DNA from: Dicyema japonicum
Taxonomy: Eukaryota; Dicyemida; Rhombozoa; Dicyemidae
Length of the DNA: 64,000 nucleotides
NCBI GenBank assembly: GCA_011109175.1
Contig: RDEW01000025.1
Location: forward strand, 341,990-405,989
Direction: 5' to 3'
This document shows, piece after piece, positions 1 through 59,189 of the stretch. Position numbers and translations under genes: made by a program. Under the pieces are notes generated by a model. The model was given only the letters and a program-made list of their open reading frames with translations. It ran no database searches and was not told where the DNA came from. Numbering within the stretch: position 1 is the first letter of the stretch; each line of letters starts with the position of its first letter.

Positions 1-3000
1 GCTTCCTTATTCCAAAACCTCAGGTTTCTGATGTCTCCCATGTCCCCAGTTCGCCTCTCCTTTCGTCTCAGACTATTTGACAGGAACATGAGGAATCTTA
101 AACTTCGAAGAGAGCTGATCACCTCATTACAAGAGGACAACCTCGGTCTCTCCTAGGGCTGAAGTGATTAATGTGGATAAGGAAGCAATCGTTATCTGAA
201 AGATGCTGCACGTGACACACAAATATGTTAGTTATAGCTAGCAAGCCAGCAAATATCACCACGGAGGACAACTTCGCAACATCTGTGGAAAGATTCCTTG
301 GATTTACGTACGATGCTTCCTGAAGCTCTTAGTGGTGATCTGAGATCGATAAAAATGGGCTCAAGATGAAGGATCTTGGTGATCTGAGAAGTCGACTTCA
401 AATAGAAGGATGGTGGAAGCGATTAGTGAACATGATTATCCAAGCGTGAGAGTTGCCCTCATGATCCAATATTTTGGAAAAGTCATTGGGTCACTTTGAG
501 TTCACTCTTCCGTGTTTTTACAAGTCGATTAATCCCGGACTCCCTTGCTTGGTCTTCCAATGTATCAATTGTAGAATGGTAGAGATTCTGCCTATAAAGG
601 AACTTCGACAAGGATCTCCCTCTTTACGACCGATCGAAATCAAAACTGTAGGGAAAGTCCTACTCTGATTGAGTTTGGTAGCAACGATTCTAAAACCCTG
701 ATCTCAGGAGGTCCAGCCCCTAGGTTTTTCTTGTTTCAAGGACCTGCGTTTCGAAGAGCCCGCATGAAATTGGGGGATCTTGGTCAAATCAATTGCATTC
801 GTAGCAAAATCTCACTAAAGTTTTAATTATCCTCCCCTCTCTAATTCAGTTGTGAGGGATGGTTTTTCTCCGCAGAAAACAAATCATGGGAGAAGACAGG
901 GAGTGGCTATTAAGCTAGCACTCAAATGAGTCCTGAGGAGAATTCGAACGGAGAGAAGGCGAAAGTTATAAAACCTAGTAGAGAAGTAATGGAGGAACAG
1001 ACACTGTCTTCCGTAAAGAACGAATTCTGACCATTTATGTCCAGCTACTGAGGTAATCATGAAAGGAAAAAGATCTTGTTGAGGAGTCCAAGTAAATATA
1101 TTACTGGAAATCACCGTTCTCTCATTAGAGGTGTTAACTTCCAACTTATCCTCTCTCCTTATCGGAGTCAATCGTTCCTTCTCTTCTCCCATTCAAGTCG
1201 GAAGTAGAGATGAACCAAAAGCTAAAAACTGTCTAATCCTTTCCACTCTTTCCTTCTATTCCTAAAGGGGTCATTAGATCCACCTAATTCAGGAGTCCTG
1301 GTTTCTGATGATCCTGAGTCCATTAATAAGGGGGAAGAAGGTTGATGAGATGAACAAATTAACTGTGCAAGAGCTATTCCATAGTGTACCAGAGCTACGT
1401 CATCAGTCAACAGCTAACCACTAAGCTAACTGGCTAGGGATCTGTGATGGTGACTATACCGTGCTGGCCCACTAATCTTTAAAGTCTTAGATGCGGTAGA
1501 AAGACATCTTGTTGAGCTACATCTTGAAGGTTTACCTAAGGTTTTAAGCAAAGTCTTAAAGTTAACCAAAAATGGTAGTGAAACTTATCTTACGGTCCCT
1601 GTGGTGCTGGAATGGCATTCATTGTTAAAGATGTTGTAATTTGAACACGTAAACTTCACTGGACTAATCATACGAGGTCCCTATTGTATGAGAACGTTCA
1701 CTCCCGGGAACTCTGCGAGGGGTAAGAGGCATTTACAAAATCTCCCTATATTGAAAAACCACGGAAACTACAAGAGGCAGTGTTTGCTTCCTCTCTATGG
1801 TGATCGCCAGGCAGAAAGTTACCTTGAGAGCAACGGTTCGAACTTCCTAATATAGTCAGGGACACTGATCTCTGTTTCAGAAAGTCAGGTGGAGACCATT
1901 GACTTTGTGCAGTCGACGCAAAATGTCCCATACAATGAGCAGACATAGAAAAGTCAAGGAATTTATCTCCGACATCGTTCACTTTTAATAAATGTAAACC
2001 ACGTGGTATAATTCACAACTGGTGAACCACGTGACACCAAATGGATAAGTTAAATTACTCTCTCCGAGACCCGTGGAGAATTATTTCCGGAAAGGGGGAT
2101 GGGGTATTAGAATTTCTAGATGGTGGGATCTCGAGAAAAGCATGGGATAAGGTGAAGATGCTACTAATTACCTGATGCCTGCGTTTTTAGAGGTAGAGAA
2201 GTGGGTCTACCCTCTTCCATTTTCATCGCACGGCACATCACTCCATTAATAGGCGGGATTGTTTTCACCAGACTCAATTGATGTGCGAATGGTGCAAGCG
2301 ACTTAATGGTAGCTCTGAAGGATTCTGGTAATATCCTTGAATACTGACTGGGGTTAAGTGGTCGAAAAGAGACATTGATGGATCACATTCAGCGCTCGTG
2401 AGATATTAGGTGAAGTCATCAGATTGAACCACGTGGGTATTCACTTAAAGTATTAAAATGTATTAAGAACATTCGAGAATGTATTTCCCTCGTTAACCAC
2501 GGAGTAGACTCAGAATTCAGCATCCAATACAAGAATCGATTTTTTGCTCATATGAGGCGTATTTATCAGCCTATTTTATGGGAGAATTGATCAACTATTG
2601 GGGGATTCAATTAATCCCCAAGAGATCGTCCCTTACCTAATTAGTGTCCCAATTGTGTCAATAATTTAACTTTACTAACTGCGAACTAAGTAGGTTCAGT
2701 CCCCAAGGTCCACTTAGCCAAATCATAAATGAGAAGCATCACAACTAATAGTTCAGTAGGTGGGGGAGGTCAAATGATGACCATGCACTGGGTACTTGCG
2801 TTGAACAAATTAGATACATAAACCACGTGGCATGGAAAGCCACTCCCAAACAACTTATTTAGCAAACTAAGCGAAAATCACTCAAAATTTATTAATGACC
2901 CCACAGCAAAAACGCTATCCTGAAGAACCACGTGTGGCTTTATTTTTAAAACCTACCGATCAAAATGAGACAATTGGCAATCAAAATGAGATGTTAACCC

Positions 3001-3171
3001 TTATTAACATTATCTTAACTCACATGGAAACAAATGATTATTTTATTTAAAAATTAATCCATGCTAACGAATGGGCATTATTAGTGAGCCGTTAACGATT
3101 AATGTGATTAATATTTTAATTAGTTGTGGTTTACTTTACTATGTAATGCTTGACCTTTTTAATTATTATTA
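1..3171. other. gene-free stretch
   Basis: I find no recognisable protein here. The open frames present are short, lack micro-intron-compatible continuation and match no family I know. On the minus strand near 1222-1410 there is a retroelement-like peptide (ELGGSNDPFRNRRKEW), which also occurs as a decayed piece near 15.4 kb. CACGTG occurs five times between 2000 and 2935, and two GATCAAAATGAGA-type motifs lie at about 2959 and 2979. Confidence 0.6.
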
Positions 3172-3590: not shown

Positions 3591-3653
3591 ATTAAAACAC
3601 AAAAAATAATTTTAAATTGTCAAATTTAATAAAACAGTTTTTTAATTAATTTA

Positions 3654-4430: not shown

Positions 4431-6670
4431 GTGATGATTCAATTTAAATATTTTATTATTTTATTTAATAATTTTATATTAATTAAATTAGTAAATAATT
4501 TAATTATAAAATCAAAAAACTCCACTTTGACCTAATTTATCATTAATTAGCAAATCTGTCGATAATTGAATTTATATTTGATTTATTGACTTTCTATCAT
4601 TTATTAATATTATTTCAGGGTTTATTTTTAATTTATTTTAGTTACTCTAAAAACATATAATTATATAGTTGCCATAGAAACGTATGACCTGGAATATTTA
4701 TGACAAATTTGCTTGATCTCGTATATTCTGATGTCTATCTGACATCTTGATAACTTATCTCAATCTATTTGATCAATATCCTTAGGCGGGTATTGAGTGT
4801 TTACCCCCTCATCGACTCTCCTTTAGTGAGGGCTTGTGTGGAGTCGAGGATGAAGAACGGGTTGTGGTGATTCTTTGATTTTTATTTCATTGTTGTGGTA
4901 TTTGCTTGAGCATTGTTGTTTTCACATGGTCGTCAAGGATTACTGTAATTAAGTAGATATTGTAATTTGAGTTTAAAATCACAATTAAGTTAATATTCTG
5001 ACTGATAATTATTTCGTCAGATAACCTCAAATTGAGTATTGATTTTATTTAAGTAGGAACTTAACTATGTGAGGCACTGGAAGAATAACGTCATAATTTT
5101 TGCAATAAAAATTTGTTAAAGAAACTGGAATCCTGGAATGGCAGAGACTTGGCAGGGGTGAGGGTGGGCTATAATATAGGGAGGCGATATTCTGGAGAAT
5201 ACGGTTTCTGGTAAGGTTCTCTCTTTCTAGAGGCGTCCAATGCTGACAACCGTTTTTGGGGCCATAAACTCCTATGATTTAACTGAAATATTGGGAGAAG
5301 CACTACATTGCATAAGATGACACGTGACTGGATCCTAGTCAAGTTCCACAAAGGGTAGTTAAAATAGTTGGAGGTGAATGACTTCGCCAGATACAAGCAA
5401 CTGTCATACAGCTCGCAGGATTTGACCTACATTCGTCCAAAATCCAGGTTATTCCTAATGTGGTGAATGACTTCACTTCTACCTAAGTTTGACGAAGGAT
5501 AGTAGGGGGTAACCTTCGGGTAGATGTAACCACAGTTAGATGCAAACAGACGTATTAGAAGAAGGAATGGAAAGCTCTCCCTATATAACCGAGTCTTCCT
5601 GTAGACCAACCGTGGAAGAAAGTCATGAAAAGAGATTAACAAAAATTTCCCCATAAACCAGCGTTTCTCAATTTTTATCGTAACAATCTGGTCCCACGTG
5701 ATTTTGAGAAAGCTTTTTGGTAAAACAATTTCCTGATCCGGACAGTATAGGAATTCTTAAAGGAATACACCATTCGAGACATCTTGAGTGTCTAAGAACG
5801 GTCAACTGCAGAAGAATTTCTGGGATAGGGGATGAAGAAAATATTCAATCGACCCCCATGCAGTCAAGTGTGCAAGAGAGTTATGAAAGGGGATAACAAA
5901 AATCTAAATATTTATCTCAGCTAATAACTGTGATTGGTGAACATTATCCCAAGTCCCTCAGAATGAGAGGGGTGTCAAGGTTCATCTTTGCTTTCACCAA
6001 CTTGTGGAACTAGCTCGTGATTGAGGAAATCACAGGAAAAGAAAGTACGATAGATTCAGATGGGAAGAGAGGAGATTAATGAGTCCTCTAAGAATGGAGG
6101 TGATTTCTAGTGATTCCCAAGATGTACTCTTCTAGCACTATCAGTACTTTTCCTTGAATGTATGGATGCAGAGGGACAGATAATTAGTTCGGTTACTATT
6201 ACCCTCTTTCTTGATGAACCCTGGGGTATCTAAGTGGCAACACAAATCAGGAACAATTATATCTTTTCCGCAAAGTCCGACGATTTCCCTGGATGTACGA
6301 GTGATAAGGCTCCCGTTCTCCTTACAAGTGCCTCAAAAGAGTTAGTCTAGCACCGAGGTGGAGAAGCACCTGATCAACTATAATATATTTGGTCTTCTAC
6401 AATCCCCAGTCTAGTGAGATCCCAAATTCGAATATTACTTCTGACTTCATTAACTATAACTATAAGCTGCACGTGGTTAAAGAACGAGTCCGATTCCCAA
6501 ACAAGATCTCAATTATGGTCAACCTCTCAGAGCTGAAAAAATAAATAATTTATTATAAAATAATATATAAATTAAAATAAAATAATTCAAATAATAATTA
6601 AAACGGTTTTGTGGTCGAACGCACATAGATTTAAAAAATAACTAAAAGAATTTATTTTTGAAAAGGAAAC
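4431..6670. other. gene-free, AT-rich spacer
   Basis: 4440-4720 is extremely AT-rich and presumably includes the AK2 upstream region. 4730-6540 has only short unsupported frames, such as minus 5169-5396 and 5427-5654, with no recognisable domain. 6540-6670 is AT-rich and leads into the TUBGCP5 start. Confidence 0.5.
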
Positions 6671-9600
6671 ATGAATCATGAAAGAATCATAAAGCTAATA
6701 GAATCGTTAGCAAAGACCTCGGTACTCAGCAAATTAATACCAAATAGATTGACAGAATTGACGTGGACAAATCAGTTAGTAGAATAAACCGGTCATTTCG
6801 CTTCGAAGTCAAGCCGGACACTAATGAAAACGTCGTCCATTCAAAAATAGAAGGGTCTTTGGATTATGTGACTTATAGATTTTACGAACGATTTATTATT
6901 TCCTGTCAAAACGACAAGGCTAAATACTTCAAGAAACTTATCGATTCCATACTAAATAGCGACCTGCCTAATCCCAACATCAACTTTGTGCGAAATGTAA
7001 TTTTATTTAATTTTTTTATTTTTAAATATTTTTTTAAATTTATCAAATTTTTAGAAATTACTGGAATATCGCATTTTTGACTTTTTATTTAATTTATCTT
7101 CTCGTCCCCTACAGTCAAATTTCAATAAATCCTGCCTTTTCTGTGAAAGTGTCGGTTTTCCGTGAATTCACGGTTTTTAGAAACCACGGATTTTGAAAGC
7201 TTAGAACTTGATTATTCTGATCTTTATGCGTCAGAAGACCTATCAGAGAAGGTAGGATTTGGTCTACTAATTAAGTGCTCTTCGGAGGACTCGGTTTTCT
7301 CTTATTCTGAATGTTACTACGTGGACGAGACCGAAGACAAGGGAGAAATGGTAGAAGAGGCCAAGCCGATCAATATGGAAGATTCTACGGAGCTGGTTGA
7401 TCGGAATCTGATTAATGTGAGGGACCATGACTTGAAAATAGACTACTCATGTTTTTCGCAGTACAAAATTTCTAATATTTTGAGGTTTTTTTCCCATCTA
7501 ATTTAGACTCGGATATTTGACTGGAAAAGGCCGCCAAAAGAAACTGACCAGTCAAGTAATTGTGGGTCTAAACCTTCTTTGGTAGGGTCACTGGTTTAAT
7601 ATAGGTCAATTCAAGGAATTGGAAACGAAGGGATCGACCATCTGCTAGAAAACTACGAGCTGACTCACATGTCCATGGTAATGATGGTTTGTTATGAAGT
7701 CAACCCTAAATACCGCTTTCTCTCTTATACGAACACGTGGAAAACAGGTTGGTGAGATAAGAACGTTTTGTGAGCAAAATGATGACGTCTTGGAATCGTG
7801 GTAAACTCAGTGTGTTCCCATATATTGGATTTGCTACAAGGCCTTGATTGTTTTATAAACAAATTTGAAAAGTTTGTGCGACTTGTTCCAGGTTGAAATG
7901 TTTTTTATTATTATTTAATTTTTTTGAAATTTTAAATTTTAATAAATATTTTTAAATTTAGGTGAGGAATTTTCCTTGCTTGGGTTGATCCTCTCTTTAC
8001 AGCCGTGGATCAGGCTGATTGGAGTTATCCATAATGTTGTGAGCACTATGGAGTCTTTTATTCATGACAATGTTGTGCAATCTCAGCAGAATGTAAAGAT
8101 TGTCGACTACCTAAGCAATCTAATGGAGAAATGCTTTTATTCCGATCAATACACAGAAAATATCATTTTGGAGCAATTTGACTGGCTCACCCGGGATCTT
8201 GTCCCACATAACTTGATTGTGGAGTAAATTATTAAAAAGTAGATTTCATCAGTATTCTCCACGTGGACAACTTCTGTTCGCAGCTACTTGAATCTGCTGG
8301 ATCTCGGTCTCTTCCATGTATACGACTGTGAGGCTATTCTTCAAAACATTCCAACTTGGTAAGTTATTTTTACAACCAATTTTATAGCGATGATTTAAAG
8401 GGGTGATCAATCTTACTGAATCTGAACTGGCCATTGATTTTTCCGAAAGTCAAAATCAAAAATATTGCATTCATTATTAAAATGACGTCATCCTTCAAAG
8501 ATCATTCAAAATTTTTCAGACGTAACGGTTTTGTGTCTTCTTATTGTAAGAGGAACTGTTGGGAGATCACGTGTTTTCAGTTTTGGCTAAGAAGTTAAAG
8601 TTGGTTAAAACCAAGCGAACGAAAATATACGAAGCCTTCAAATATGGGGATTACATAACAGACTGTGATATAGTCTTGCAGCAAACCATTTCGACACACT
8701 TTGAGGAGTATTTCTCAGCCACAGTTGAGGCTATTTTGGAAAGCGGAACAGAATGGTATGTCAGACTGTAAACCCTAATTAGGCTTGTCAGTGGGGAATT
8801 TATTGACAATCCTGTGGTTTCAGTGCGCCAGATTACTTCTGAGTGGATCAGTAACAAAAGATTAAAGTGTTCACAAGAAGGCATTCGAATTTTAAAATCT
8901 GAATTTAATTTTATTTATATTTTAAATAATTTAATAGTTTGAATGTATTATTAATTTTAGAAAAATTATTTATTTTTTGATTTTTGCTCCACAATTTCAC
9001 TTCTCGATGATATTTTTTCTACGGTTTATACCGGTTTTAATTTTAGATTGAGGATACAGAATATGCTGGAAAATTTGACAAAAAAGAAGTTTTAAATTTA
9101 ATTTTAATGAATTTAAATTTATTTAATTTCAAGTGATATTTTTATTTATTTTTAGCGGTCAAATTAATGGAGGGGAATTTTGTCCGTTTCTTGTTGATTG
9201 CATTAATTTAGTCGATGTGGACTATCCGGTTGTTATTGTGTTTTACTTTTTTTGTAGTTTTCAGGTCTTCTTTCACGTTTTATTACCAAAACTGACTTTG
9301 AGAAGCTCACCCAAGTTAGAAGTTTGATTTTCCGGATCATTCTGGCAAAGTATTTACTGGAACGAACTCATCTTTGCTGTTTGTCTTATTTTTGTGACCA
9401 TTCTGTAGACAGGGACCGAATGGGTGATAGAACATACTCTTTTTTTGACTTTTGTATCCTTCGGGGTCGACTCTTGTCCGTTATTTCCGCGATTTACCGC
9501 AATTTTGTCTTTTCTGTTTACCTGGAAGTAATTCCTGCCTTTATGGAAAGGATTGAATCTTCTCAAGACTGTGAAGAGGTCGTATCATTATGGAATGGTC

Positions 9601-11748: not shown

Positions 11749-12529
11749 ATGTCCTTTTGGAAGTTTAGCAACAAAGATGAGTTATTCAAGAGCGTGGTCT
11801 CTTTCAGCAAGAAGATGGCGACAAAAATACACACCATATCCGATTCTGTAATCACTGAGAGCAAAGTTCTATTCCTACTTATAAAATCCACTAGTTGGTA
11901 CTCCATGAACTTATGGAAGATATCAAGGAGGATGCCATCGACTACTCTCAATTTCTTCCGTGGTATGAGACCCCTAATCTTACGGAAACGGAAATCGAGC
12001 AGTACAAAAAACTCGTTCTTAAGATTTCCACCGTATTTTTTTATATTTGACTTTTTAGAACGAATCAAACTTTTTTGTGGAGGTCCCTTCTTCGTTTACT
12101 CCTCCGGGGGAGAGGATCAGCGACCGAGCCATTGCCCTCCTTAAATTCGACGAAAACTTGCGAGAAATGCGCTATAAATTCGTTCCAAGCGAGTTTCGGG
12201 ATCATCTTTAATTTTAGAATCTCAGAACTCGAGTTTTGGCGGACATATTTCTACCACGTGTCTCTAGTTGAACAATGCATTGGAACACATGTGGAATCTA
12301 AGACTCTCGAGGTCGTGAAGGAGACACACGTGGTGATAGAGAAACCTTCAGTGGGGCATAGCGTACAGGGAAGTGATGGCACTGGGGACAGCTTCTCCGT
12401 GATAGGGACTGATTATGACATTCGTAGTGGTTTTATGGGAGGTGTTTAGAAGAGGTTGAGGAGGAAGAGGAGTATGAGGATATGGATGATGAAGTGAGGA
12501 AGCAGTTGGAGGAAGAGGGACTCCTGTGA
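11749..12529 (+). CDS. SYAP1: BSD-domain protein, SYAP1/BSDC1 type
   Basis: Five exons (11749-11865, 11895-12032, 12059-12192, 12218-12423, 12450-12529) with introns of 29, 26, 25 and 26 nt give 224 residues. The N-terminus (MSFWKFSNKDELFKSV) is an amphipathic helix. FLPW is followed by a helix and then by the BSD core, LREMRYKFVPSEI into EFWRTYFYHVSL, which carries the hallmark F-W and adjacent aromatics. The C-terminus is acidic (YEDMDDEVRKQLEEEGLL). SYAP1 is implicated in AKT/mTORC2 signalling and synaptic function; BSDC1 is less studied. FLPW upstream and the length favour SYAP1, while the acidic tail recalls BSDC1. The start is the only ATG giving an open first exon. The gene is intact. 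Confidence 0.78.
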
Positions 12530-13429: not shown

Positions 13430-16130
13430 TAATTTATTATTTATGGTGTTTTTGTTTATTTATTTCCAGTTCTTGTAAACTAATGGCTAATGGGAACTTA
13501 CACCCGAATAGGATCCACCAGAGATAATTAGCGGTTAAATGGGATAAAAATCATCTTTCAGGAATCAAAGAATTGTTTGGGACAACGTGATCCCCAAATT
13601 AGTCGATGGAAATTGACTTTGATGGAATGAGGCAAACATAGCATTTGGGGATTAATCTTGGGCTTGAGCCTTGTTTCTGATCTTCTAAGGAAGAGGTTGA
13701 ATCTCTTAGAATAACTTATAATCAATAATATTATTTTTGTTTGAACACTTTACATAGGCCACGTGGAGTATGATACCAGATGAAGATAACTTGACCGCAA
13801 TGCGGTCTTAGACATGTTCTAAGAGATCAAATCGTCCTCGTGATAACGTTATATTATCCACCTGTTTTGGGAGGTGACCGATACTATGACGTCACCAAAG
13901 GAATTCCTATGGCAGTTGATCATTCCTTAAAGAGCATGAATGTCCCAGGCTGTGTCGGCCTTGAGAGCTAGACAGTTTTAGTTGGGTAGTATTTTCTACT
14001 TGTGAAAGTAAAGGGATTATTAGAACTTTCTAGAATTAATAATCCCCCGTTCCTTCTTAAGACGGATTCGTTTAAGCCTCTCCGATTCTAAGCCAGACTC
14101 TTTTCAGTCTCTCAACTTTTACCAGACGAGATCCACCCCAAGCATTGGCGCATCTATTTTTTCCTCATTTCAAGTCTTAAGGTTTCCGATATCCCCGATT
14201 CCGTAAGAAAAGAAAGGTTATATCCATTTTGAATGGTGGACCACGGAAATATCGGATTTACGAATTTAAGCACTAAAAAAACGTCGGATATACAATCGAA
14301 CCCCATTTTTTCCAATTGAAGGAGTTTAGATGATTAATGTAAGATTCCGTGATTTTCGCTTAGAATCCGTCACCATTTAACTCAAGAACTGCCTAAATAA
14401 CGGACTATAGGAAGAGGACATGGAATAGTTACTCCGACCTTGTTAACATGTAGGCTGCCATTAGGCGTCCATCTGAAAGTACAAAGTGCTACCTCAAGTC
14501 CCTTGGTAGTCCTGATACGGAAAAGATTTGACCCAAGACCTAGGTGTCATAACTGCGTTTCTCAGTCATCACAAGAAAATCAGCTGTAATGAATCTAACA
14601 TTGATTTTGCACAGGCAGTGTCCTTTTTGTGCAAAAGACATCTGCTTCAGCTTGCGTATAAAATATGTCGACTTTGCTGTTTTAATGAATTACTTACTCT
14701 TTTTCTGTCTGTTTTTCGCAAATTTTTCACTGCAGTCAACTGTATTTGATTAAATTATCGTTTGAGGATGAAGTAGTGGACAACCAGTCTGATCATTTTG
14801 GGGGAGATAACCTCGGTGAATTATCAGAGGAAAAAAGATCTGAGTCAGTTTTTCTAAAAATTGGATAATTTAAAGTAACTAAAGCACTAATGGAATCACT
14901 CTAACAGCTAATACATGTTGTCCCTTTATTATCAGAAAAGTTATATAAGTCACTTGGTGCACGTATAGTTCGACCACTTTTCTAAATGAGTCATTTTAAG
15001 GGATATAGAACCACAGCAATGACCATTAATATCTAAGACAACAACATGTCTATGGAAACCCACACAAATCAAATTATCACATTACCCCTATTATCTATTT
15101 AAGTCTCATTATGATCGACGCATCTCATTTTGATTGATTTATGTACCATTATGGTCGGTTTAAATCTCATTTTGATCGTTTTATTTTTCATTGTGATCAT
15201 TTACATCTCATTTTGATTGGACTCATTGTGATTGACGTAAGTTAAGAAAATGGATAGATCTGAGGACTAAGTCTTTTCCTTCATGGTGGATAAAACCTCT
15301 CGTCTCTATTCTTAATAAAAATCGATTTCGCCGTTACAACGCCGTTGCGACTTGGAAAATTAAGTAGGTCTTGTGGTGCCATGATTGGAGATTTCTCTTC
15401 CTTCCTTCTGATGGCGTCATTGGATCCACCCTACTCAGGAGACACCCAATGCATGGCCGACATTTAAAAAGATCCACTTATAATTTTATTGGGAGACTAT
15501 TTCCCTGGTGACAAGTTCTGGTTTCGACCTCAGCTCCCCGAACAATATCTTTGATTGGATGAGGGTTCTAATGGAACCGTAGGATCACGGGATTAGTTAG
15601 TTTGGTTTTACACCTAGTCTTTGGAATAATTTCAGTAATGTCTGATGACATAGGATCTGACAGTTGTGCGTTTGAAGCTGAAAGATGGACTTTCAGTGAT
15701 GTTCAATTTTCTTCAAGCAGATCCCACCCATGAGGCGACCAGTCATTATCCATTCATAAATTGACCCTAACCCATTCCATAAATTCTTAAAATAAAGTAT
15801 GAGGTCCGCCTAAGTGAGGTTTAAGTAAGGGAAACATTAACCTCCTCCTCAATTCAGTTAACAGACCGCTATGCAGTTCTTCTGATTCTTCATCCCGCAT
15901 GTTGTGTTCTCAATTTGGTTACCGACTGCTCTACTGTTCTGCTTATGAAACTCACTGTTTTACTGTTCCACTGTTCTAAATTTTCAGAAACTCAAATTCT
16001 TCATATCTGGACTGCAACATATATATAGATAGAGGCATTGGGGACCGGTTTTGGCTTTGAGCCCATAGGACCCGACATTACAGTGGGAGCAGTTTTTATT
16101 GGTGGTGCTCTTATAATAATCGCATGCTTC
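13430..16130. other. gene-free stretch with repeat fragments
   Basis: No gene is recognised. 14290-14310 carries TACAATCGAACCCC, similar to the pogo-type TIR. About 15400-15485 is one copy of the dispersed repeat also found at 35340, 58380 and 38042 (minus). Confidence 0.5.
15105..15240. repeat. cluster of ATCTCATTTTGATCG-type motifs
   Basis: About seven degenerate copies of a 13-15 bp motif (core TCTCATTTTGAT) occur at roughly 20-28 bp spacing, alternating with variants such as CATTATGGTCG. The same motif occurs in three other places in the window (2955-2995, 24550-24590, 34612-34655). Function is unknown. Confidence 0.7.
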
Positions 16131-16639
16131 TTGCATTTAGCGACGCTGGGATCTACAATTTAATTTAACGGAACTCACATTAAAGTAACCTTGAGATCCA
16201 GCCTCAAGATGATTTCTTCCGAAAAATGTTATTTCACTCAATGTCCGATTTGATAGCACTGGCTGGTCCCAAAGAAAGATCCCGGTAATGTCTGGGGGAA
16301 TTGGTTCGAGGTACCCAGCCGATTTGGGATTCAATGCTACCTGTCGTCCCTCACAAGACCAACTCAATCTTATATTCCTGCCCCAGATTGAATCTGAACC
16401 CTGAGCTTAACAGGTTGGCAGCAGTGGACAATAAGAGGGCTTGGAGTTCCGAACAACTGAATCTCTTAGTAGGAGAAGATGAAATCCTTCGTAAAAAGAT
16501 AAATGAATTTGGAAGGTCCGCAGTTATCCATCATCTCACGTGTCTGAATGTTGCATCTGCTGAGAATTCGGGGTGCTGGCTCTATGTCTTCCGATATCTC
16601 AGAATCACACAACTCCATTGGAACCAGCATAAAGGTAGA

Positions 16640-42782: not shown

Positions 42783-44000
42783 TGCAGTTGCAGTCAATAA
42801 ATAAACGGAAGAATAGTTATTAGTTTCAATCAAGTCCTGCCATAGCTTGGACTCTCCTCTGCAACCTCAGAGCCCTCTTATGGTTCATTCCGTGCTTCGA
42901 CATACGAGTCAAGGATAGCATCTCTTTTCAGGAAGTTTGTCATCCTTTTCTCTTTTACTTCTCTGATTGAGACTAATAGCAAAGCATCTTCCTCATCTAA
43001 AGTCGTTTGTGTAGGGCAATCTTGATCCCTGCTCTTTTCTATTTTTAAGAAGTAAGATAAAAGGCTCCTTGTATGCAGTGTAATACAATCCCTGAAGATA
43101 CTTGTAATACAATCCCTATTTGAGCGAATCTCACTCGCCATCCTGAGAGGGAATAGCCACACAGTCAGGGAGGCCGCTGTATAACTGTTCACTTATTAAT
43201 CCTGCTTACTCATGGGCTTGAGTTTTGATTGGGGTATGTCCACGTTATCATACGCATTAGTTGAGATTCCCATATGATCATACGGCATCTTGAGCCTCAG
43301 GACAGATCATCCTCGTCCAAGATCTGGGTTTTCAGCTAGCTTTGTCCACAGGCGTGTGACCCACGTGAAAAATACCGCATATGGTAACAGGTATTAGTAG
43401 TTATGCATTTGATCGTTTATGCCTAAGAGAACTTACCCAAGAACAGTGATCAGGAAGACGTTGTCATGGGAGCTGAGGTCGATTGCAAAACTCGTCAGTA
43501 GGGAACAAAATTGTCTCCCAGTGGAATAAACAGGAAATCTTTGTTTTTTCTCAAGATCCTGGGTGTCTGACTAGATTCACACGTCCATGAAACTCAGAGG
43601 GTCCTCCAGTCGATATATTGTCATCGTGAGTATCAAGTTCCCACTGTCGCAGAAACCGAGAGACCTTCCATAGAAGCTCATTCAGAACCACAAAAAAGAA
43701 AGCTTCTTGCAATTGTGGGAACCTTTCCATTAGAGTGGGGGAGAGAAAATGACCCTTCTTGATACCATCATCCCATTAGGCGTTACTTGGGACTGGTAGA
43801 TCACATGACGCTATTTTAGAAGAACGAGAGAAGATAAGAAACAGAAGAAATGAAGAGAAACCTCGGACCAAATACCCATTGGAAGAAATCGAACCCATGA
43901 CCAATTGCCCTGACTGCGTGGTTATTCCTCTCAGGATTGCGAATAAGATTCGCTAGAAAAGATCCCCGGTGTGAGTCGAAATCTGATTCTCTAGTCAACC
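42783..44000. mobile_element. retroelement C-terminus fragments and an R3 copy
   Basis: 43124-43190 (plus) reads RISLAILRGNSHTVREAAV then stop, the best-preserved copy of the repeated retroelement C-terminus. 43705-43870 is an R3 repeat copy. 43905-43965 (minus) is another ILRGITTQSG-type C-terminus. The minus frame 42878-43192 overlaps the first fragment in the opposite direction and is not supported. Confidence 0.55.
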
Positions 44001-45204: not shown

Positions 45205-45390
45205 AGTTGTAGAAACCCCTCCAGTGGAGTGGAGGAGAGCAAATGATCCTTTATCGTGCCGGCCTGGCACTGAGCGCCACCTAAACAGGTGGATCACATG
45301 ACGCCACTCTAATAGGAAGAGAGAGGAAGAACAGACGAACAAACAGAAACTTCAACCAATTAGCCACAAAACACCACATGGCGCCACGTG
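45205..45390 (+). repeat. dispersed repeat family R3, best-preserved copy
   Basis: Runs from AAACCCCTCCAGTGGAGTGG through GGCCTGGCACTGAGCGCCAC, CTCTAATAGGAAGAGAGAGG and CAACCAATTAGCCACAAAAC to ACATGGCGCCACGTG. It lies just downstream of the EMC2 stop in inverse orientation. No coding potential. Confidence 0.75.
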
Positions 45391-45568: not shown

Positions 45569-46504
45569 CTAATCAGATAAGTTATTAATTCTATTAAGTG
45601 CCATCTTCCTCAGCTTTTCGTTAGTTTCATCAGTCCTACGTTGAGCCCTGGTAATTCTCTCACAACTCTAAGATGGTCCCTCAACCGACTACCAGCAATA
45701 GCCCGTAAAGGGCCCTCAGTGAACTAGGATTCAGTTCAGAGGCCGTCAGGAAGTATTTTCTAGCGAAAAGGTAGTTCTCCAGTCCTCCTTGTGTGTACTT
45801 CACCTCCCCCATCTTCAAGTGGAACAGTGGATTATGAGGGTTCAGCAGCAGCAACTCCTCCATACAGTAAGCAGCCTTCTCATACTCGTACTGCATCAGG
45901 TAGAGATCACAGAGCTCCGACCAGCCATCAGCATAACCAACAAATCTAAGGGTCACTTTTAAGCCTACACTGCCAGCAGCACGGAAAGCTGCCTAATTGC
46001 CTCCTCGAAATCTCCCCTTGCCTTTAAAATCGAAATTTGGCGGGACATTGCTGACTAAAAAATCTCGCCAAATTTATACTAAATTCGAAGGTTCGACGTC
46101 GAGAATGGCATAATAGACATCCATAGCCTTATCATACTCTCCCTTATACTCGAGGTAGACTCCGTGGAGAATTAGAACCTCATTGCTATCAGGGAACTTG
46201 GCCTTGAGGTGCTTCAAACAATTCTAAATGCTTTAAAGTCAGTACGATTGCCACGTGGTCCACGCCACATTGAAGAGCAGAATAGAAGACAATTTTAACT
46301 ATTTTTTCGACTAAAATATATATTTCTTCGCTTACAATTACAGGTGGAACTTTTTCTATCGAATGAGAAAAAACCGTTCCACAGTTTCAGTATTTCACGT
46401 GCGGAAAGTTCGTTTTCTTTGGTTATCAGTAATTCTGTGGCTTCTGAAGTGATTTAACGGAATTTTAACCAACCTTTTACTGACACACATCGAGCATGTT
46501 TCAT
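45569..46504 (-). CDS. EMC2: ER membrane protein complex subunit 2
   Basis: TPR subunit of the EMC, the insertase that places tail-anchored and multipass proteins into the ER membrane; it lies on the cytosolic face. Seven exons (46504-46474, 46443-46375, 46355-46246, 46223-46080, 46054-45969, 45945-45693, 45667-45569) with introns of 30, 19, 22, 25, 23 and 25 nt give 263 residues (human 297). TPR helices are visible: SEEIYILVEKIVKIVFYSAL, HLKAKFPDSNEVLILHG, EYKGEYDKAMDVYYAIL, and the diagnostic GEVKYTQGGLENY with YFLTASELNPSSLRALYGL. The intron at 46374-46356 is only 19 nt. Exon 1 (MKHARCVSVK) is tentative. Confidence 0.92.
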
Positions 46505-48391
46505 TTGAAATATTTTTAATTGTCATTTTAAATTTGAATTTTTAAAAAATTAATTTTTAATGTAATAAAAAACTATTATCTTCCAGTGTCAGCTCTCATT
46601 GTGCGTCGTTCGCGTCGTGATCGCTTGTGAGTAAGATTCCCATACCGCTAACTATTTGGTCGAAGGATTCATTTCGGTCTGTTGCCTTCTTCAATTCCTA
46701 TGAGGTGCCATGGTATCCACCAGTCTCAGAGACGTTTAATGTTTGGCCGGTTCCAGAGGATCCCTATCTTCCCCACTCAGTGGAGGGGTTCCAACAATAA
46801 TCGATACGGTTGGACGTAATGCCTAGAAAGGATTCGTCCCACTCCCACCGGGAAACTGGATGTTCCTTAATTAGACGTTAATTAACTCTTGACCTCTTCC
46901 CGGTATATCAGGGGTTATTAAATAAAGTGGTTGAGTACATTGTTTATATGAAAATCACTCAACTAGTCATCTCTCATCAGCTTCCCCTTCTCATGTTTGT
47001 TATTAACGATCCACTTAAAGTTAATGAGTTGGATTCAAGAATCCACGTGGTTTCGGTTATGATGGGCCTGAAAATGAACTCAAATAATCATCTATTTCTT
47101 TAAAGAGTTTTGGCTCTCATCAGGCTGATTCTGAGTGTGTATCCTGTCAGTCCAAGGTTGGAAAGAGAAAAGTCAGAGTCGTCCTGGCTTTTACTTCATA
47201 CAGTCAAGTCGAAGGGATTTCAGTTGTATAGGGTATCCACAGGTTTCAAGTCCTCCCGCGATTGCCCGTTTATCACTCTGTGCTTCACCCTCCTTTTGCC
47301 GCTCTATCGACAGAAGCGTGAAATCCTTTAGCGTCGACCGTCTTCACGTATCTGCACCAGGTCTCAGAGAGGGAAGGGTTAGATCAGTCTTCACTCATCA
47401 GTTAATAAGAAGGTTGGAGTGATGACGTCCCCTTATTGAACGGAAGTTCCTGAACAATGCAGTGTCGAGTAGACTATGCTTTTGATTCGAATCCACTGGG
47501 TGTCATGCCTCTATCAATACTCCTCGGTTCAATCCCCTCAATGACTATCTGTGCAGAGGTTTTTATTCTCTATTTCGATTCATTCTATTGGAGTGTGTAA
47601 TGTACCTGTCTCAAGTTGCTTCCAGTGCCAAAAAAGGATCATTTGATCTCCTCCACTCCACTGGACATGTCAACTGTGTTCTGAATAGATTTATGTGATA
47701 TTGGATAGTCTGTTTATGTGGGGGTTGAATAAATTTAGTTAGTCGTGAGCCATTAATCTTCTACCAAGTTCCTTCAATTTTAAACGGACAAACTCAAATC
47801 TTCACTTGTTCAGAACTGCGAGTTTCCGATATCTCCCGAGTCGGGCACTTAGTCACATTTACTTTATCTTCAACAGTAAACCAATTATCTTTTACATTCT
47901 CCTAAACTTATAGCAGTCATATATTAGTGCTCTGACACGTGCGTACTGGGCTTAACTGATGGACTTGTAAATCAATGGTTCTAGTAGGCATCAACATTTC
48001 TCAAGCAAAGCAGTTCTAAAATGTGCCTATTTTGCTTACCATTACCCCCATAGATTTATAGTTCTGACACGTGGCTATTTTACTTACCAATACCCTCATA
48101 AATTTGCAGTTCTGACAATTCAACGTTTAGAGCACGTGGATACGCTGTAGACCAACTGTTCCACCGCATATCACTAGCTACATCCTAATAGATTTACAAT
48201 TACGACACAGGTTGATACACAACAACACTTGATGTACGCTAACTCTTCGTCTATTTTATCACATGCCTATTTTACCTACCTACTAGTCATAAGCGAATCA
48301 GTTCTCACAAAAAAAACAAAATATAACGCCTACTATAAAATCCCCAAATTCAAATTTTTATAAATTAAAATTAAAAAATAATCAAAACACA
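46505..48391. other. gene-free stretch with repeat copies
   Basis: 46690-46775 resembles the R2 body. 47430-47545 contains two tRNA-B-box-like strings (GATTCGAATCC and CGGTTCAATCCCC), possibly old SINE heads. 47620-47675 is a minus-strand R3 fragment. CACGTG occurs at 47043, 47937, 48067 and 48133. No gene is seen. Confidence 0.45.
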
Positions 48392-52000: not shown

Positions 52001-52249
52001 TAATTTTTTAATATTCAAAGTTATTTTTCTCTTAGTTTTTTTAAATGTATAATAATTTTTGTATATTAATTGTATTGAATTGTTTCAGGTTGTTATAATA
52101 TCATATTTTGCACGAATAATTAAAGCCAGACACCCAATGGATTTGAAAAAATGTTATATTTACCTAAATAAAATAACTAGAGTCAGGAAAAATGTTATAT
52201 AAATGCAAAAAAATCGATGGAGTTCCACGTGCGGACGGTGACAATATTT

Positions 52250-53452: not shown

Positions 53453-54868
53453 ATGGAAATTGAAGGAAAGATCGAGGGTTCTTACAAATCTTATCATTAT
53501 AGAGTGGACTGAGGAGCACTATAGAAAGCTATTTGATAGAGTGAAAGAAAACATGCCTAAAGCAAGGAAGCTATGCTACAAAGCATCACTCAACCGAATA
53601 AGCTGGGAAAACGTTTCTTTCCTTCCATTCAGCGCGAATGAATGCAAATCTCGATTTACCCGACTAATATCCCACGTCTGCCCCAAAGTAATTTTTAGGT
53701 GAGGAAATTACGCACTTTGCCCAGCATCCTTGAAGAGACTGAGACTAACCTAGGCAAGATCTGTGACAAAATTTCTAATAATGACAACCATCTAAGCGGC
53801 TATATTCTCTTCTACAAGCAGAGGTTTCCAATAATGCGGGAGAAATACCCTAAACTTTCAGTCGGGGAGTTAGGGAAGATGATTGGGAGAGCCTACAGGA
53901 AGTTAAACCCAGAAATCAAAGTTGGCTTATTATTGATGTTTTAGCGAGGATACGCGAAAAAGACGGAAAAGAAAATAGTCTTAAATGACCGCCCAAAGCT
54001 TCCACCACGTGCATGGGAAATTTTTGCGGATAGAAAGATAGCTAAAGCGATCTCTAAGAATTCGGAGGTTCAGATTCCGGTGAAATTTAGATCTCTAAGG
54101 ATGGCCTAAGAAAACGTTATATCGACAAGTTCGATGACCTTTCCTTGAAGAAAAAGTATGGATACGTTCTTAAATTCGAGGTCTTGAGAGAGAAGTACGA
54201 GGTAAGGAGTGGTCCTTTATTTAGACTGAATGTGATGAATACGAGAAGTCTCACCAGAATGTAAAAATTCGGAGACTTTTAATGAAGAACCTAAGAAGAG
54301 AACGGAGCATAATTTTTGACCACCTTAACGTCCCGAAAAGACCTCCAAAGTAATATCTATTATTATTTTTACTTATTTAAAATATTTTAAATTTTAAAAT
54401 AATTTTAAATTTTACTATTTTAATTTTGATAGTTCAATATTTTCATTATTTTACTCACAAAATGGTTCTGAGAGTATCAGCAACGCGTCCAAACTCTGGA
54501 AGGATATCCCTGTCGAAAACAAACAGAAAATGAGTGATTTACTTTTAGAGGTGATTGAAAATTATATTTTTAGCAAAAGTCGGAGTTTAGAGAGATATTT
54601 GAACGACGAATGGGAGAGCTTGACGAATTCGAAAATACTTTAGTAATGAAGTATATGCTAGGGGATGTTAGAAACGTAGTTTTTTTGTGATGAGTAGTTG
54701 AATAAGACTAAGGATGATGCTAAGAAGTCTGAGATGTTGTCTTTGTTGAGTTTCTTTGGGGAGAATAAGGAGATTATGAAGAAAAATAACGTTAATTTGA
54801 CAGACTCGGAGATAAATATTCGATTGTATGACGAATTCAAGTCCACCATAAACGGATCTTTTAAATAA
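53453..54868 (+). CDS. UBF-like multi-HMG-box nucleolar transcription factor, paralog A
   Basis: Nine exons with introns 53478-53502, 53676-53698, 53921-53944, 54080-54099 (20 nt), 54202-54224, 54350-54432 (83 nt), 54551-54573 and 54676-54697 give 390 residues in frame. EWTEEHYRKLFDRVKENMPK, then NRISWENVSFLPFSANECKS and VRKLRTLPSILEE match the UBF dimerisation region. Box 1: LSGYILFYKQRFPIMREKYP with LSVGELGKMIGRAYRKL. Box 2: LPPRAWEIFADRKIAKAI with KRYIDKFDDLSLKKKYG. Box 3: RPPNSIFSLFYSQ, KLWKDIPVENKQKMSDLLLE, FREIFERRMGELDEF. It is shorter than vertebrate UBF and lacks the acidic tail. It should act in rDNA promoter and chromatin architecture. No lesion is seen. Confidence 0.8.
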
Positions 54869-55732
54869 TTTTAAATTGGATTTGTATTTAATAATTTTAT
54901 TTAAATTGCCTTCACTGAAAAATACCACAAAACAGGATTACTCATTCTCCCCCACTATATTGGAGGGTTTCCCACAACTACAGGAACTGGATCGCTTATT
55001 CAATTTCTTTGGTCTCTTGATGATTTTGCGTGTGATATTGGAAGGGTGTCTGCTATTGTGGAGTGGGAACTGGTGTTGGTTGTTAGATATTTACTAGTCG
55101 GGATATCGAGAATTACTAGTATGATTCTCCTGTTTAACTACTTATAAATTGGGTCAGGGAAGATTCGAATCCATACACGATACTTCTTTATTTCCAAAAT
55201 TGGAGAACTACTAACGAAGGGAACTACGCACTCATACATAGATGCGTCTCCTACATTCTTGGAAGTTTCTGCTTAGAAATCTTGTAACTTTAAGTTCTCT
55301 TATCTGGCGTCTCTTAAGTATAAGAAAAAGGACAAGAGGTTGCAAATCACCACCTCAGCCTTCCAGTCGTATACACAAGAAGAAAGAAATTATGTGAAGG
55401 TCCAATCAACTAGTCAGCTTGACTGATAGACAACGAATTTAGAAAGAAATAAATCGGGTCATCAGGTCATCTAACGAAATAGATGATTGTTACTGCTTCA
55501 GAGTTGACTCAGTTGCACTTTGGAAGAGTTGATTTTATAAATAATCACATTCTTACTCGTCGGATGAAAAACTTGTCCACGTGAACAAGATAAATTCACA
55601 GAATAAAAAAATTAATTTATAACAATAAAAAATAAAAACGACAAATTTAAAATTAAAAAAATAATAAAATATTCATAATTGAAATAACAAATAAGGCAAT
55701 GTGTGTTGTAGGTCATCATATTTAGAATCGAT
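54869..55732. other. gene-free spacer
   Basis: No gene is seen. 55590-55720 is AT-rich and precedes the golgin gene. Confidence 0.5.
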
Positions 55733-57841
55733 ATGGAAGGCGAGGAGAATGTTACCCCAGAGAATTCAAACTCTGACGAATTTGAACGACTCACAGTAAC
55801 GTCCACATCTCAGGACACGGTAAACGCTACATCTTACTTCAGGAAATCAACCGTCAGCTGAAAATAGCTCAGCTTGAAGAGCGCCTAATAAAAAATGCAG
55901 AATCATACGCACGTGAAAATCACCTGCTTTCTGAACAAATCAAAGACTTAACAGAAAAACTGGTTCTATAATAAATTAACCCAGAATCGGGGCAATGAAG
56001 ATATCCATGAGGAACACGAAGACCTTAAGACTTCAGTACGTACTCTGACCGAGAAGCTGAAGATTACCAGAGAAGAGCTTAGTTGCTGTGAGAATGAACG
56101 GAACGAAGCGTTCAAGAATGTTGAATTGTCACAACAAGAAATAAGTAAATTATTTTTAATTCAAATTTAATAACAAATTTATTTTTGTTAATCATTTTTT
56201 TCAATTTTTATAAACGCTATTGAATAAATTTATTAAATTTATTTTTAATGAATTTCTTATTTTTTAGCTGTTCTAATAAATGACGTCAAAATTGCTAACG
56301 AAAAGTCGCAAAAACTGAAGAATGCAATTGTCAGAAAAACTAAGGAGACTATCGAAGCTAAACAACAGGTCTCTGTATTTTACACGGCAGAGCTCTGAGG
56401 CAATGCAAACCCTTTCTTCTTTAACAGAAACGGTTGAAAGACTAAAGACTGAACTGGAAGAGTCCAAATTGGAGTTCACCTCGATTATAGGCAAGCATCA
56501 GAAATCCTTTGAAATTGCCGAATCTGAGAAAATAGAGGCCCTCAAGTCTTCGCAGCATTATCAACGATTGTACGAATCTACTTTGACTGAACTGACCCGC
56601 CAGAGTAGTTACAGAGAGACCCTTCAGGCGGAATTTGAGAATTATAAGGTCTATGGTTGCTTAAATTAACAGAATCGCTCTAAATTAATCCTTGAGCAAC
56701 AACTGGCGGCGATTGTGGATGAGAAAAAGTCTGCTGAGGAAAATGAAAGAATGTAGTTTATTAATTTACATAGAAAAATGCTTGAATCTCAGGTTGATGA
56801 TCTCAGAAACACCCTTGAATGCTCTCAGTAACAGTCTCTCTTATTTAGACTCAACCTACAGACTTCCAAGAACTCATTAGCCGCTGTCTGTATGAGATTC
56901 GTCGTTCTTAAGCAGCAGGTTGGCAGCTTATTCCCGCTCTTTACCTCAGCTACTTTTGGCGGGTCTTTTAGTCAATATTTATTCTAAGGTTGGATAAATT
57001 GAATGAAAAGTTGATAAAGACCTCATCCAAGTTTAAAAGATGCTTCGACGCGTTAATGTCAGAGTATCGACTAGCTCACTCTAAGGATATGGTTTCATTA
57101 GTAATCTTATCCTAGCTTAAAATCAATGATCTGCTAGTTAAATTGGCCTTACAGGAGGAAATAAACGCGCAGATAAATGCCAGTATGAAGGAGTCTCCCA
57201 CTTACGAGCTTTCTGATTCCAAGAAAGCCAGTTTTGACACTGAAATTAGTATGATTGTTGAAACCCCAAAGAAGAGCCATGTTTATTTTATTTTATGACT
57301 GATTAGGGATCCCCAGGAACATGTGTACTAAAGGAAATAGTCTATGAGACTTCCGGTGACGAAATTATGAGAGTTTCTGGAAAGAAGAGTAAATCAGAAA
57401 TTGACAACTTGAAAGAGGTTGTTTTTTCCCGCTTTGCTCAATATTTATTTTTAAATTAATTTATTTTTAATAATTATTCCTTGAATTATGGAAATTATAT
57501 TTATTTGGATTATTTATTTAAGCTTTTGTCCGAAAGTAAACGGGATGAACTCCTCATGGCTAATCAACTCAGTCTGATGAAGGAGGAGATTAGAAGAATG
57601 GGACGAGCTATCGAAAGGAACTCAAATATCTCCAATATGGAGTACCTGAAAAATATAATTTTTAAGGTAATGCTAATTTATCATTAAGTTTGTCACATTC
57701 CCTCATGGGGATCAAAAAGCGACCCTGGTGTCAGTTATTCAGTCGATGCTGAACTTTACGGAGGAAGAGATTGCTGTGTTGGAGTCAATTGCTTCTGGTT
57801 TGGTTGGTTATTATCTGAGGTCGTTCCATCGAGGTGACTGA
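55733..57841 (+). CDS. coiled-coil golgin with C-terminal GRIP domain (GCC2-like)
   Basis: trans-Golgi tethering protein. The first exon begins MEGEENVTPENSNSDEFERL. A 23-nt intron (55829-55851) leads to long coiled-coil segments such as INRQLKIAQLEERLIK, LTETVERLKTELEESKLEF and LMANQLSLMKEEIRRMGRAI. About a dozen introns interrupt it, mostly 20-26 nt, with three longer AT-rich ones of about 114, 53 and 106 nt. The C-terminus reads NMEYLKNIIFKF, TFPHGDQKATLVSVIQSMLN and FTEEEIAVLESIASG, a GRIP domain that binds Arl1 or Rab GTPases; the conserved aromatic is in EYLKN. The extension GYYLRSFHRGD resembles the end of GCC2/GCC185. Total about 540 residues, much shorter than vertebrate GCC2. It could also be called GCC1-like; the exact orthology is unsure. 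Confidence 0.8.
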
Positions 57842-59189
57842 TGGGTGGGGATCCTATTTGTATGGATTTATTGATAGTGGGATTAAGTATATTCGTCCTT
57901 AATTATACTTTATTATTGTTGATTTTTATGACTGACATTATTAGAAGACTCTAGAATAATTATCAACTTGCATTTCCTTGTTACTCTTACCGAAAGGAGT
58001 TAACCCCCAATAGGTCGAGAAAGGAGTTATTGGTAAACGACTAAATGTAAAGTTTACATGACGAAATGTATCTAAAGAAGAGTCCTTTGGGGTGACCATG
58101 TTTGTAGAAACCTTTCCAAAGTATGTTTTTGTGAAGTGAGAAATAGCGAGTTATCCCTTATGATGTTGTAATGGTATTAGATGCCTACTAGATAGTTAGT
58201 TTACTTACTCATAGATCAAGTAATGCCATGGCTTCTTATATAGATCAAGTTATTGCATTTTGTTAATAGCGGTGACTCTATTCTGGTAATTGGTACACTT
58301 GCACTATATTTGTGGGTGTATTAGAAGCTTATGCAATGTACTTTCTCATCATTGTCGTCTCCTATTCCTAGAGACGTCGTTGGATCTGCCAAACTCACTA
58401 GACGATTAATGTCTGACTGGCACCTAAAAGGATCCTTCTCTTCCTTAATCCAGTCAAGATCCATGATAAAAGAGGCAAGGCGATGTAAGTGATAATCCAT
58501 TACACGTCTTCTTTCAATTTTTGTGGATGGGATTATAATCCCTATTGTTCAAACATGCTACACTTCATTTGCTCAGAACTACGGTTTTCTGATGTCTTCC
58601 GCATCGTGACTCCGTCATCCATCCTGATAGAACTGGACATTTCATATGATAGAAGTACATCAAAACCTAAATCTTTTGATCACTTGACCACGTGGTCAAC
58701 CAACATCAGAAAAAAAACAGCTAAAAATACAATTACTGTAGTAGAAAAAAGCGAAAACCTAAAACGATTGAAATATGTTGATTTAGCCCATAACGTTCGT
58801 TTCTCTCCACGTGGAAAAGACCGGAGACCTTGATCTTTTGTCCCAACCTTTTTCGTTCGAGTTGCAAGTCTAATTTCGGCTCGGCCCAGTGATTTCCGAA
58901 AACGCCGATGGCTGTATGAGTGTATCTCTCTCGCAGTCCATAGAGGAAATAGCCATGCAATTAGGACCTCCCTTTATGACTTCCGAATTTGTCTATTAAT
59001 AAAATTTTTATCATTGCCTAGAGATTAGCATTTTTTAGCTCAACCTTCCTAGATTCGAAAAACGATTCGGTACATCATCTTTAAAATAAAAGTCATCTTT
59101 AGTCATAATATATGCATAAACGTCATTTGCCCCATCGACCTCTTCCAACTGAAGGACTAACTTTAATTTGATACTTAGCCATCATTTCT
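57842..59189. other. gene-free stretch with retroelement scraps
   Basis: 58370-58445 is an R2 body copy. 58922-58975 reads ISLAVHRGNSHAIRTSLYDF, a retroelement C-terminus on the plus strand. The frame 58489-58833 has no supported function. These two scraps frame the last two CACGTG copies in the window (58690 and 58809). Confidence 0.5.

Follow-up and report, generated by a model that had tools for sequence, protein, structure and literature searches.

CACGTG as a proposed highly iterated palindrome in coding and non-coding DNA of a dicyemid genome

Introduction

How does a single six-base palindrome come to exceed its expected frequency several-fold in an animal genome, in exons as well as in spacers? 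The question is raised by a 64,000-bp stretch of Dicyema japonicum contig RDEW01000025.1 (positions 341,990 to 405,989; this whole stretch is referred to as the window), in which a first-pass annotation had described CACGTG, the core of the E-box bound by group B basic helix-loop-helix (bHLH) proteins such as Myc, Max, Mad and USF, as roughly tenfold over-represented. The assembly to which the window belongs comprises 64.67 Mb in 191 contigs and shows traits of the dicyemid type, with 37.3% GC in the window and predicted introns (window genes and one further locus, L012) of median length 23 bp, very short for an animal; the values given for D. japonicum are 67.5 Mb, 36.7% GC and a mean intron length of 38 bp (PMC6736024). 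Among the matches listed in the open-access literature, we found no earlier report of such a CACGTG excess in animals and no paper pairing dicyemids with CACGTG. A several-fold surplus of one exact hexamer at synonymous positions of coding sequence is, to our knowledge, not anticipated in animal genomes.

Results

CACGTG is over-represented in the window and across the assembly

The window contains 68 CACGTG sites, one at position 209 and 67 starting between 2000 and 58808 (1.06 per kb), against an expectation of 7.6 from base composition and of 5.3, 9.7 and 18.1 from Markov models of order 1, 2 and 3. CACGTG ranks first among all hexamers of the window at every Markov order from 0 to 4, and the Poisson tail for 68 sites when 9.7 are expected is 4e-34; the next palindrome by order 1, GCTAGC, occurs 12 times (3.9 expected), and GACGTC likewise 12 times (6.3 expected, order 1). 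We conclude that CACGTG is over-represented in the window. The earlier count, made by eye, had been 66 sites between 2000 and 58815 and none beyond; the computed number is 67, plus the one at 209, and the region beyond is indeed empty. Because the variance-to-mean ratio in 2-kb bins is 1.33, the sites can be described as nearly evenly spread, close pairs being slightly over-represented (17 of the 67 gaps are below 150 bp), and the lack of sites in the last ~5 kb stands out little beside other gaps of 3.7 and 4.1 kb in the window. The sites, 15 of which have the form CCACGTGG, are as follows (strand not assigned).

209..214, CACGTG
2000..2005, CACGTG in CCACGTGG
2028..2033, CACGTG
2430..2435, CACGTG in CCACGTGG
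2824..2829, CACGTG in CCACGTGG
2929..2934, CACGTG
5321..5326, CACGTG
5695..5700, CACGTG
6470..6475, CACGTG
7734..7739, CACGTG
8260..8265, CACGTG in CCACGTGG
8568..8573, CACGTG
12255..12260, CACGTG, His-Val codons, predicted BSD-domain gene
12327..12332, CACGTG, His-Val codons, predicted BSD-domain gene
13760..13765, CACGTG in CCACGTGG
16537..16542, CACGTG
16930..16935, CACGTG
19322..19327, CACGTG
19397..19402, CACGTG in CCACGTGG
21690..21695, CACGTG
22807..22812, CACGTG
24313..24318, CACGTG in CCACGTGG
24396..24401, CACGTG
24489..24494, CACGTG in CCACGTGG
26191..26196, CACGTG
26441..26446, CACGTG in exon-like frame 26359-26556 (presumed ALKBH7-like; no Pfam match)
26536..26541, CACGTG in CCACGTGG, His-Val of HVD motif, exon-like frame 26359-26556
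26549..26554, CACGTG across probable CAC/GTG splice donor
26664..26669, CACGTG
26942..26947, CACGTG in CCACGTGG
27416..27421, CACGTG
28063..28068, CACGTG, locally duplicated region
28613..28618, CACGTG
28651..28656, CACGTG
28998..29003, CACGTG, locally duplicated region
29528..29533, CACGTG
29990..29995, CACGTG, locally duplicated region
30443..30448, CACGTG, locally duplicated region
31604..31609, CACGTG, locally duplicated region
32889..32894, CACGTG, locally duplicated region
33196..33201, CACGTG
34702..34707, CACGTG
34761..34766, CACGTG
35722..35727, CACGTG
37880..37885, CACGTG, frame with DNA ligase domain match (Pfam)
38148..38153, CACGTG in CCACGTGG, at GGCGCCACGTG repeat end
38575..38580, CACGTG
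38901..38906, CACGTG
39024..39029, CACGTG
40148..40153, CACGTG
40196..40201, CACGTG
41910..41915, CACGTG
42429..42434, CACGTG
42776..42781, CACGTG
43362..43367, CACGTG
45385..45390, CACGTG at GGCGCCACGTG repeat end
46252..46257, CACGTG in CCACGTGG, His-Val codons, EMC2 gene
46396..46401, CACGTG, coding, EMC2 gene
47044..47049, CACGTG in CCACGTGG
47936..47941, CACGTG
48068..48073, CACGTG, coding in weak gene prediction (log-likelihood ratio 4.4), inside 48-bp tandem repeat
48133..48138, CACGTG, coding in weak gene prediction (log-likelihood ratio 4.4)
52226..52231, CACGTG
54006..54011, CACGTG, coding, HMG-box gene
55578..55583, CACGTG
55910..55915, CACGTG, coding, predicted gene with C-terminal GRIP domain match
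58689..58694, CACGTG in CCACGTGG
58808..58813, CACGTG in CCACGTGG

Genome-wide, CACGTG occurs 20,572 times and the reversed word GTGCAC 4,154 times; for the control CpG palindrome GACGTC and its reversal CTGCAG the numbers are 11,218 and 8,692. Genome expectations were scaled by hand from a sample made up of the window and 21 further loci, nine random and 12 taken around hits to the helix-loop-helix (HLH) family (15.2 by order 1 and 23.3 by order 2 in 187,657 bp), giving ~5,200 and ~8,000 sites, an excess of ~4-fold and 2.6-fold; GACGTC reaches ~1.8-fold when its order-1 value in the window is scaled up. Proposed with the first-pass annotation as a census of all hexamers and run here for the words named, the genome-wide check thus found CACGTG neither near expectation nor equalled by the other palindromes counted. 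The genome mean is 0.318 sites per kb and the window is 3.3 times denser, so the tenfold figure holds for this region (13-fold by order 1) and falls to about fourfold by the same order for the whole genome.

Neighbouring words stay close to expectation. In the whole sample all 18 one-mismatch variants sum to 460 against 414 expected (order 2), and when summed by hand the outer position contributes 169 (141 expected) and the two inner positions together 291 (273 expected). With CACGTG masked, CpG in the window stands at 0.78 of the composition expectation, close to GpC at 0.80, and there is therefore no special loss of CpG. An artefact of composition or CpG was rejected on the Markov backgrounds, the GACGTC control and the one-mismatch neighbours.

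The excess extends to coding sequence at synonymous positions

Coding sequences (CDS) were predicted with a purpose-written gene finder based on codon usage, which was seeded with frames that mostly have Pfam matches and which allows short introns (14 bp at minimum). The 26 predicted CDS contain 22 CACGTG sites, one of which arises across a splice junction, compared to 3.29 +/- 1.72 after synonymous shuffling, and none of 500 shuffles reached 22. When seven predictions judged by eye to be transposon-like are left out, the remaining 19 CDS still hold 22 sites against 2.46 +/- 1.40 (maximum 8 in 1000 synonymous-codon shuffles), and the excess is found in the window alone (9 against 1.07), in the other loci (13 against 1.30) and after removal of the densest locus, the PHD-finger gene at L012 with its five sites (17 against 1.93). 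The earlier remark that the excess reaches exons is borne out by these numbers. No other hexamer is as enriched in CDS relative to synonymous shuffling (22 against 3.5, 200 shuffles), the sites fall in codon frames 0, 1 and 2 in numbers of 8, 9 and 5, and 8 of the 12 His-Val pairs are spelt CAC GTG where codon usage predicts 14% (P = 4e-5). For 14 of the 18 one-mismatch words, the CDS total is 46, with 46.3 expected. We conclude that the excess acts at synonymous positions, in all three frames and on the exact word.

Among the window genes with coding CACGTG are EMC2, the BSD, HMG-box and GRIP-domain genes, together with the frame that matches DNA ligase. EMC2 has mostly animal matches, the best among those listed being from arthropods and molluscs at no more than 48% identity, and no dicyemid is named among the matches listed. 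An exon-like frame at 26359-26556, which reads DGYIKAHVDS and which may be ALKBH7-like (Pfam gave no match), contains sites at 26441, 26536 and 26549, the last of which spans the probable CAC/GTG donor of a 25-bp intron, as read by hand. The placing of sites in ALKBH7 exons and over two of their splice donors is thus plausible for three sites in the frame and one donor; the second donor and a Pfam match behind the name are missing.

Sites are dense in host genes and spacers and show no peak at predicted starts

Compartments were compared by the ratio of sites to a masked order-2 expectation. Coding sequence of host genes reaches 14.7-fold (21 sites in 14.7 kb); for the compartments called non-coding, which still include genes missed by the finder, the values are 10.8-fold in the window (60 sites against 5.6 expected in 53 kb), 7.1-fold in loci L007, L009, L010, L012 and L013 (25 in 40 kb, three of them copies within one tandem array at L007) and 5.3-fold around HLH genes (16 in 32 kb). 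Open reading frames (ORFs) assigned by eye as transposon-like stand at 1.2-fold (2 in 11.7 kb), and four loci judged repeat-rich (L005, L006, L008 and L011) at 1.4-fold (5 in 39 kb), a grouping made after the counts had been seen and with L007 and its three tandem-array sites kept in the other group. Eight of the 20 transposon-like ORFs match RVT_1, Exo_endo_phos or zf-CCHC in Pfam (one RVT_1 match lying below the cut-off), and these eight carry 2 sites in ~4.3 kb by hand count, compared to ~6 at the host-coding rate. Repeats outside the window, defined by BLAST within the sample such that only families of high copy number are detectable, show no clear CACGTG deficit. A deficit in transposons is suggestive at most.

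Upstream of predicted starts there are 3 sites in 4.0 kb (0-250 bp), 1 in 3.9 kb (250-500), 6 in 7.5 kb (500-1000) and 8 in 6.5 kb (1000-1500), and hence no peak within 1500 bp; successive bins downstream of predicted ends hold 2 in 4.3, 1 in 4.1, 12 in 8.0 and 4 in 6.1 kb. A role confined to promoters is not supported by this distribution or by the excess at synonymous positions, and the plain E-box that the first-pass annotation had offered among its explanations is likewise not supported as an account of the whole.

Repeats account for a small part of the window sites. Only 7 of the 68 lie in sequence repeated within the sample and the other 61 outside it, where they are also denser (1.15 against 0.64 per kb), which agrees with the earlier statement that no single repeat family explains them; a repeat origin was rejected for most window sites on this basis. 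Elsewhere the densities inside and outside sample repeats are similar, at 0.36 and 0.43 per kb in the nine random loci and 0.82 and 0.60 per kb in the HLH loci. The CACGTG described at GGCGCCACGTG repeat ends is real and concerns two sites, 38148 and 45385. No shared flanking sequence was found between window sites beyond 0.28 bits at the base next to the core (+4), with 0.09 bits or less further out.

Flanking bases are graded and dyad-symmetric

The symmetrised flank profile of the window sites has one clear signal, C before and G after the core (the 0.28 bits above), followed by A four bases further out (0.09 bits). Genome-wide, enrichment over the reversed control is 20.3-fold for C..G flanks, that is CCACGTGG (2618/129), 5.9-fold for G..C (792/134), 3.9-fold for T..A (1834/474) and 2.6-fold for A..T (1187/456). 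A preference that is graded and dyad-symmetric suggests a dimeric reader. tCACGTG is reported to be disfavoured by MYC:MAX and MAX:MAX (PMC5515408), and the genome-wide ratios follow this group B preference, with C..G at 20-fold and T..A at 3.9-fold. The CCACGTGG form is itself clustered along contig C1 (15 bins to 2.31 Mb; variance/mean 2.9, P 2e-4), and in the same bins no significant clustering is seen for the T..A and A..T forms; a regional cluster of CCACGTGG lies at 1.23-1.54 Mb.

The genome encodes Max/Myc-like bHLH proteins

A search of the genome for the HLH family gave 25 hits, all of which were translated (12 loci and 13 short stretches). In 13 of the 25 exons (L018, L019, L021-L026, L028-L031 and L038, chosen by eye) the basic region is Max/Myc-like, and in their alignment H5, N6, E9, R12 and R13 are invariant. 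In Max, His28 and Glu32 lie at the outer base pair (PMC5515408), and the class B arginine at position 13 reads the central CpG (PMC8431614). A profile of the 13 exons searched against PDB matched Max best (E 1e-12), then Myc, USF and Mad. Single exons behave similarly: L024 and L022 match Max (E 5e-8 and 1e-8), L019 matches Max then Myc, L021 USF2 then Max, L029 Max, L030 Max weakly and L023 USF weakly, and a Max query alone finds 10 places in the genome at E <= 1. Most insects of a set of 13 have one Max, with a range of 1-3, and one planthopper has 14 group B genes (PMC5126786). Some of the exons are clear paralogues: over 30 residues, L018 and L019 are 97% and L023 and L028 93% identical, and L022, L026, L031 and L038 form a group at 67-87%; a protein search with L022 found no relatives. 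The share of the HLH set that is Max/Myc-like (about half) and the recent duplications are notable.

For the iterated palindrome HIP1 of cyanobacteria, methyl-directed mismatch repair has been proposed. Neither N6_N4_Mtase (PF01555) nor DNA_methylase (PF00145), the two families searched, has a match in the genome, in an exon-by-exon search that could miss a gene finely split by introns. A domesticated methyltransferase was rejected on this result, and the methylation-driven origin raised by the first-pass annotation finds no enzyme in these two families.

Other features of the window and assembly

Between 27500 and 33000 the window contains locally duplicated segments at spacings of about 805 and 1285 bp, and a tandem array of 67-68 bp lies at 31754-32360. 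A dispersed element at 24734-25103 has at least 39 further copies at 91-98% identity and carries no CACGTG. Near-perfect tandem duplications of 168, 246 and 90 bp at 52503-53295 and 62387-62566 are possible assembly artefacts, and the translation of the first includes an unknown residue. Two LSM exons elsewhere in the assembly (G000:C111:833161 and C171:95532) have identical scores and frame lengths and possibly represent unmerged haplotypes.

Discussion

The excess of CACGTG, its exactness and its reach into coding and non-coding DNA are direct observations. As an explanation we favour, tentatively and at somewhat less than even confidence, that CACGTG is a genome-wide highly iterated palindrome maintained by a weak force. 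This force would target the word itself, in exons no less than in spacers, and is most likely tied to recognition by Max-type bHLH dimers, and the sites would form a diffuse lattice. The link to Max-type proteins is favoured because the flanks are dyad-symmetric and graded and because the genome carries several Max/Myc-like bHLH genes, some of them duplicated in the lineage; such a reader would prefer CCACGTGG, then GCACGTGC, TCACGTGA and ACACGTGT, in that order. A reversible balance fits, since the one-mismatch neighbours are at expectation, and by stationary-distribution theory a 7-15-fold excess at balance would need a population-scaled advantage of ~2-2.7 per site. The putative binding sites would most likely organise or mark host chromatin and not serve as promoter switches.

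Several observations weigh against this interpretation. The shared histidine, glutamate and arginine are partly circular as support, because the 13 exons were picked by their basic region, and at 13 they barely differ in number from a single insect's 14 group B genes, so that the total is not large and what is unusual is confined to their share of the HLH hits and to the recent paralogues. The CDS were predicted by a finder written for this work, and HLH hits determined the choice of 12 of the 21 additional loci. His-Val pairs as such are not significantly more frequent (12 against 7.1). The window is 3.3 times denser than the genome mean, and this regional variation is not accounted for. The lowest enrichment belongs to the A..T flanks, an outcome not predicted by the portions of the Max literature consulted. 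Between repeat copies CACGTG is kept in 6 of 18 cases, compared to 31% for all hexamers and 27% for CpG hexamers (some of the pairs being nested), and the lack of clear extra conservation argues against strong constraint.

An alternative is that CACGTG is functionless in itself and arises as a side effect of DNA repair or gene conversion, when a bias coupled to recognition writes it over neighbouring words. Such a bias, which we consider rather unlikely, would yield the reach across coding and non-coding DNA, the exact word, neighbours near the neutral level, the absence of clear extra conservation between repeat copies and a density near one per kb as for HIP1 (PMC4390886); its methyl-directed form, however, is without an enzyme in N6_N4_Mtase or DNA_methylase (in a search that a split gene could escape), CpG shows no special loss, and flanks graded in this way point to a protein as the reader. 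These data do not distinguish selection for binding from repair or gene conversion coupled to it, and of the origins first suggested a genome-wide bHLH site and a repair bias are both still candidates, with the Max-like proteins favouring the former; a DNA-elimination signal, also raised by the first-pass annotation, would be a hypothetical third. Ordinary regulatory E-boxes, that is promoter and enhancer sites for Myc/Max or USF that look dense in a compact genome, are improbable: CACGTG is the classical group B site, the C..G flank is favoured and bHLH genes are present, but 22 sites fall in predicted CDS where synonymous shuffling gives 2.5, predicted starts lack an upstream peak, and ~20,000 sites would serve ~5,000 genes if the gene number is as reported for D. 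japonicum (PMC6736024).

The remaining explanations concern the relation of the word to repeats. That repeats or transposons carry the sites, or that base composition and CpG content produce them, is hardly credible and largely contradicted: two sites at a GGCGCCACGTG end, seven window sites in sample repeats, three tandem copies at L007 and similar densities inside and outside sample repeats beyond the window would suit it, but 61 of the 68 sites in the window fall outside sample repeats, where density is higher, their flanks share almost nothing past one base, and other palindromes and the one-mismatch words are near expectation. Conversely, CACGTG could be a retention or self mark, a lattice read by a lineage-expanded set of Max-like bHLH proteins that would keep, amplify or hold open the host genome during somatic remodelling, with new transposons lacking the mark. 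We hold this to be very improbable but worth testing, because chromatin elimination and circular DNA, along with selective amplification, have been reported in dicyemids (PMC6543705). High density in host genes, low density in the four loci judged repeat-rich (5 sites in 39 kb, grouped post hoc) and the lineage-duplicated Max-like genes speak for it; its odds are lowered because repeat densities do not support a general deficit, BLAST-defined repeats outside the window showing no clear one, and any contrast with repeats may reflect only their youth.

By analogy, the pattern we favour, a word-level force likely tied to Max-type proteins, resembles a known kind, the highly iterated palindromes of bacteria, here in an animal. 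The surplus of HIP1 spans coding and non-coding DNA, and that of CACGTG likewise covers predicted host CDS and non-coding DNA. Like HIP1 and the alternate HIPs, CACGTG is one exact palindrome grossly over-represented genome-wide and present at ~1 per kb (here in the window). Unlike HIP1, it is a hexamer with C..G flanks in an animal, with no methyltransferase in the two families searched and with Max-like bHLH genes present instead. Bacterial DNA uptake sequences and Chi-like words are also short and have been raised in frequency, inside and outside coding sequence, by a weak force acting genome-wide; they differ in not being dyad palindromes with bHLH readers, and we know of no natural uptake in this animal. 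The periodic A/T clusters (PATC) of nematode germline genes could mark self from transposons, and CACGTG is comparable as a feature spread through host genes that could make the same distinction, but PATC is a periodic A/T signal and not an exact palindrome in exons. With the group B E-boxes CACGTG shares the core and a T flank less favoured than C, and what sets it apart is that it exceeds expectation at synonymous positions of coding sequence and in spacers distant from predicted genes, and that predicted starts show no peak. HIP1 itself (GCGATCGC) occurs about once per kilobase in cyanobacteria, and its function is debated (PMC4390886). If general in the lineage, the CACGTG excess would represent a counterpart of HIP1 in animals, would show that a word of the transcription-factor type can mould an entire genome down to its codon choice, and would provide a testable sequence handle on dicyemid genome remodelling.

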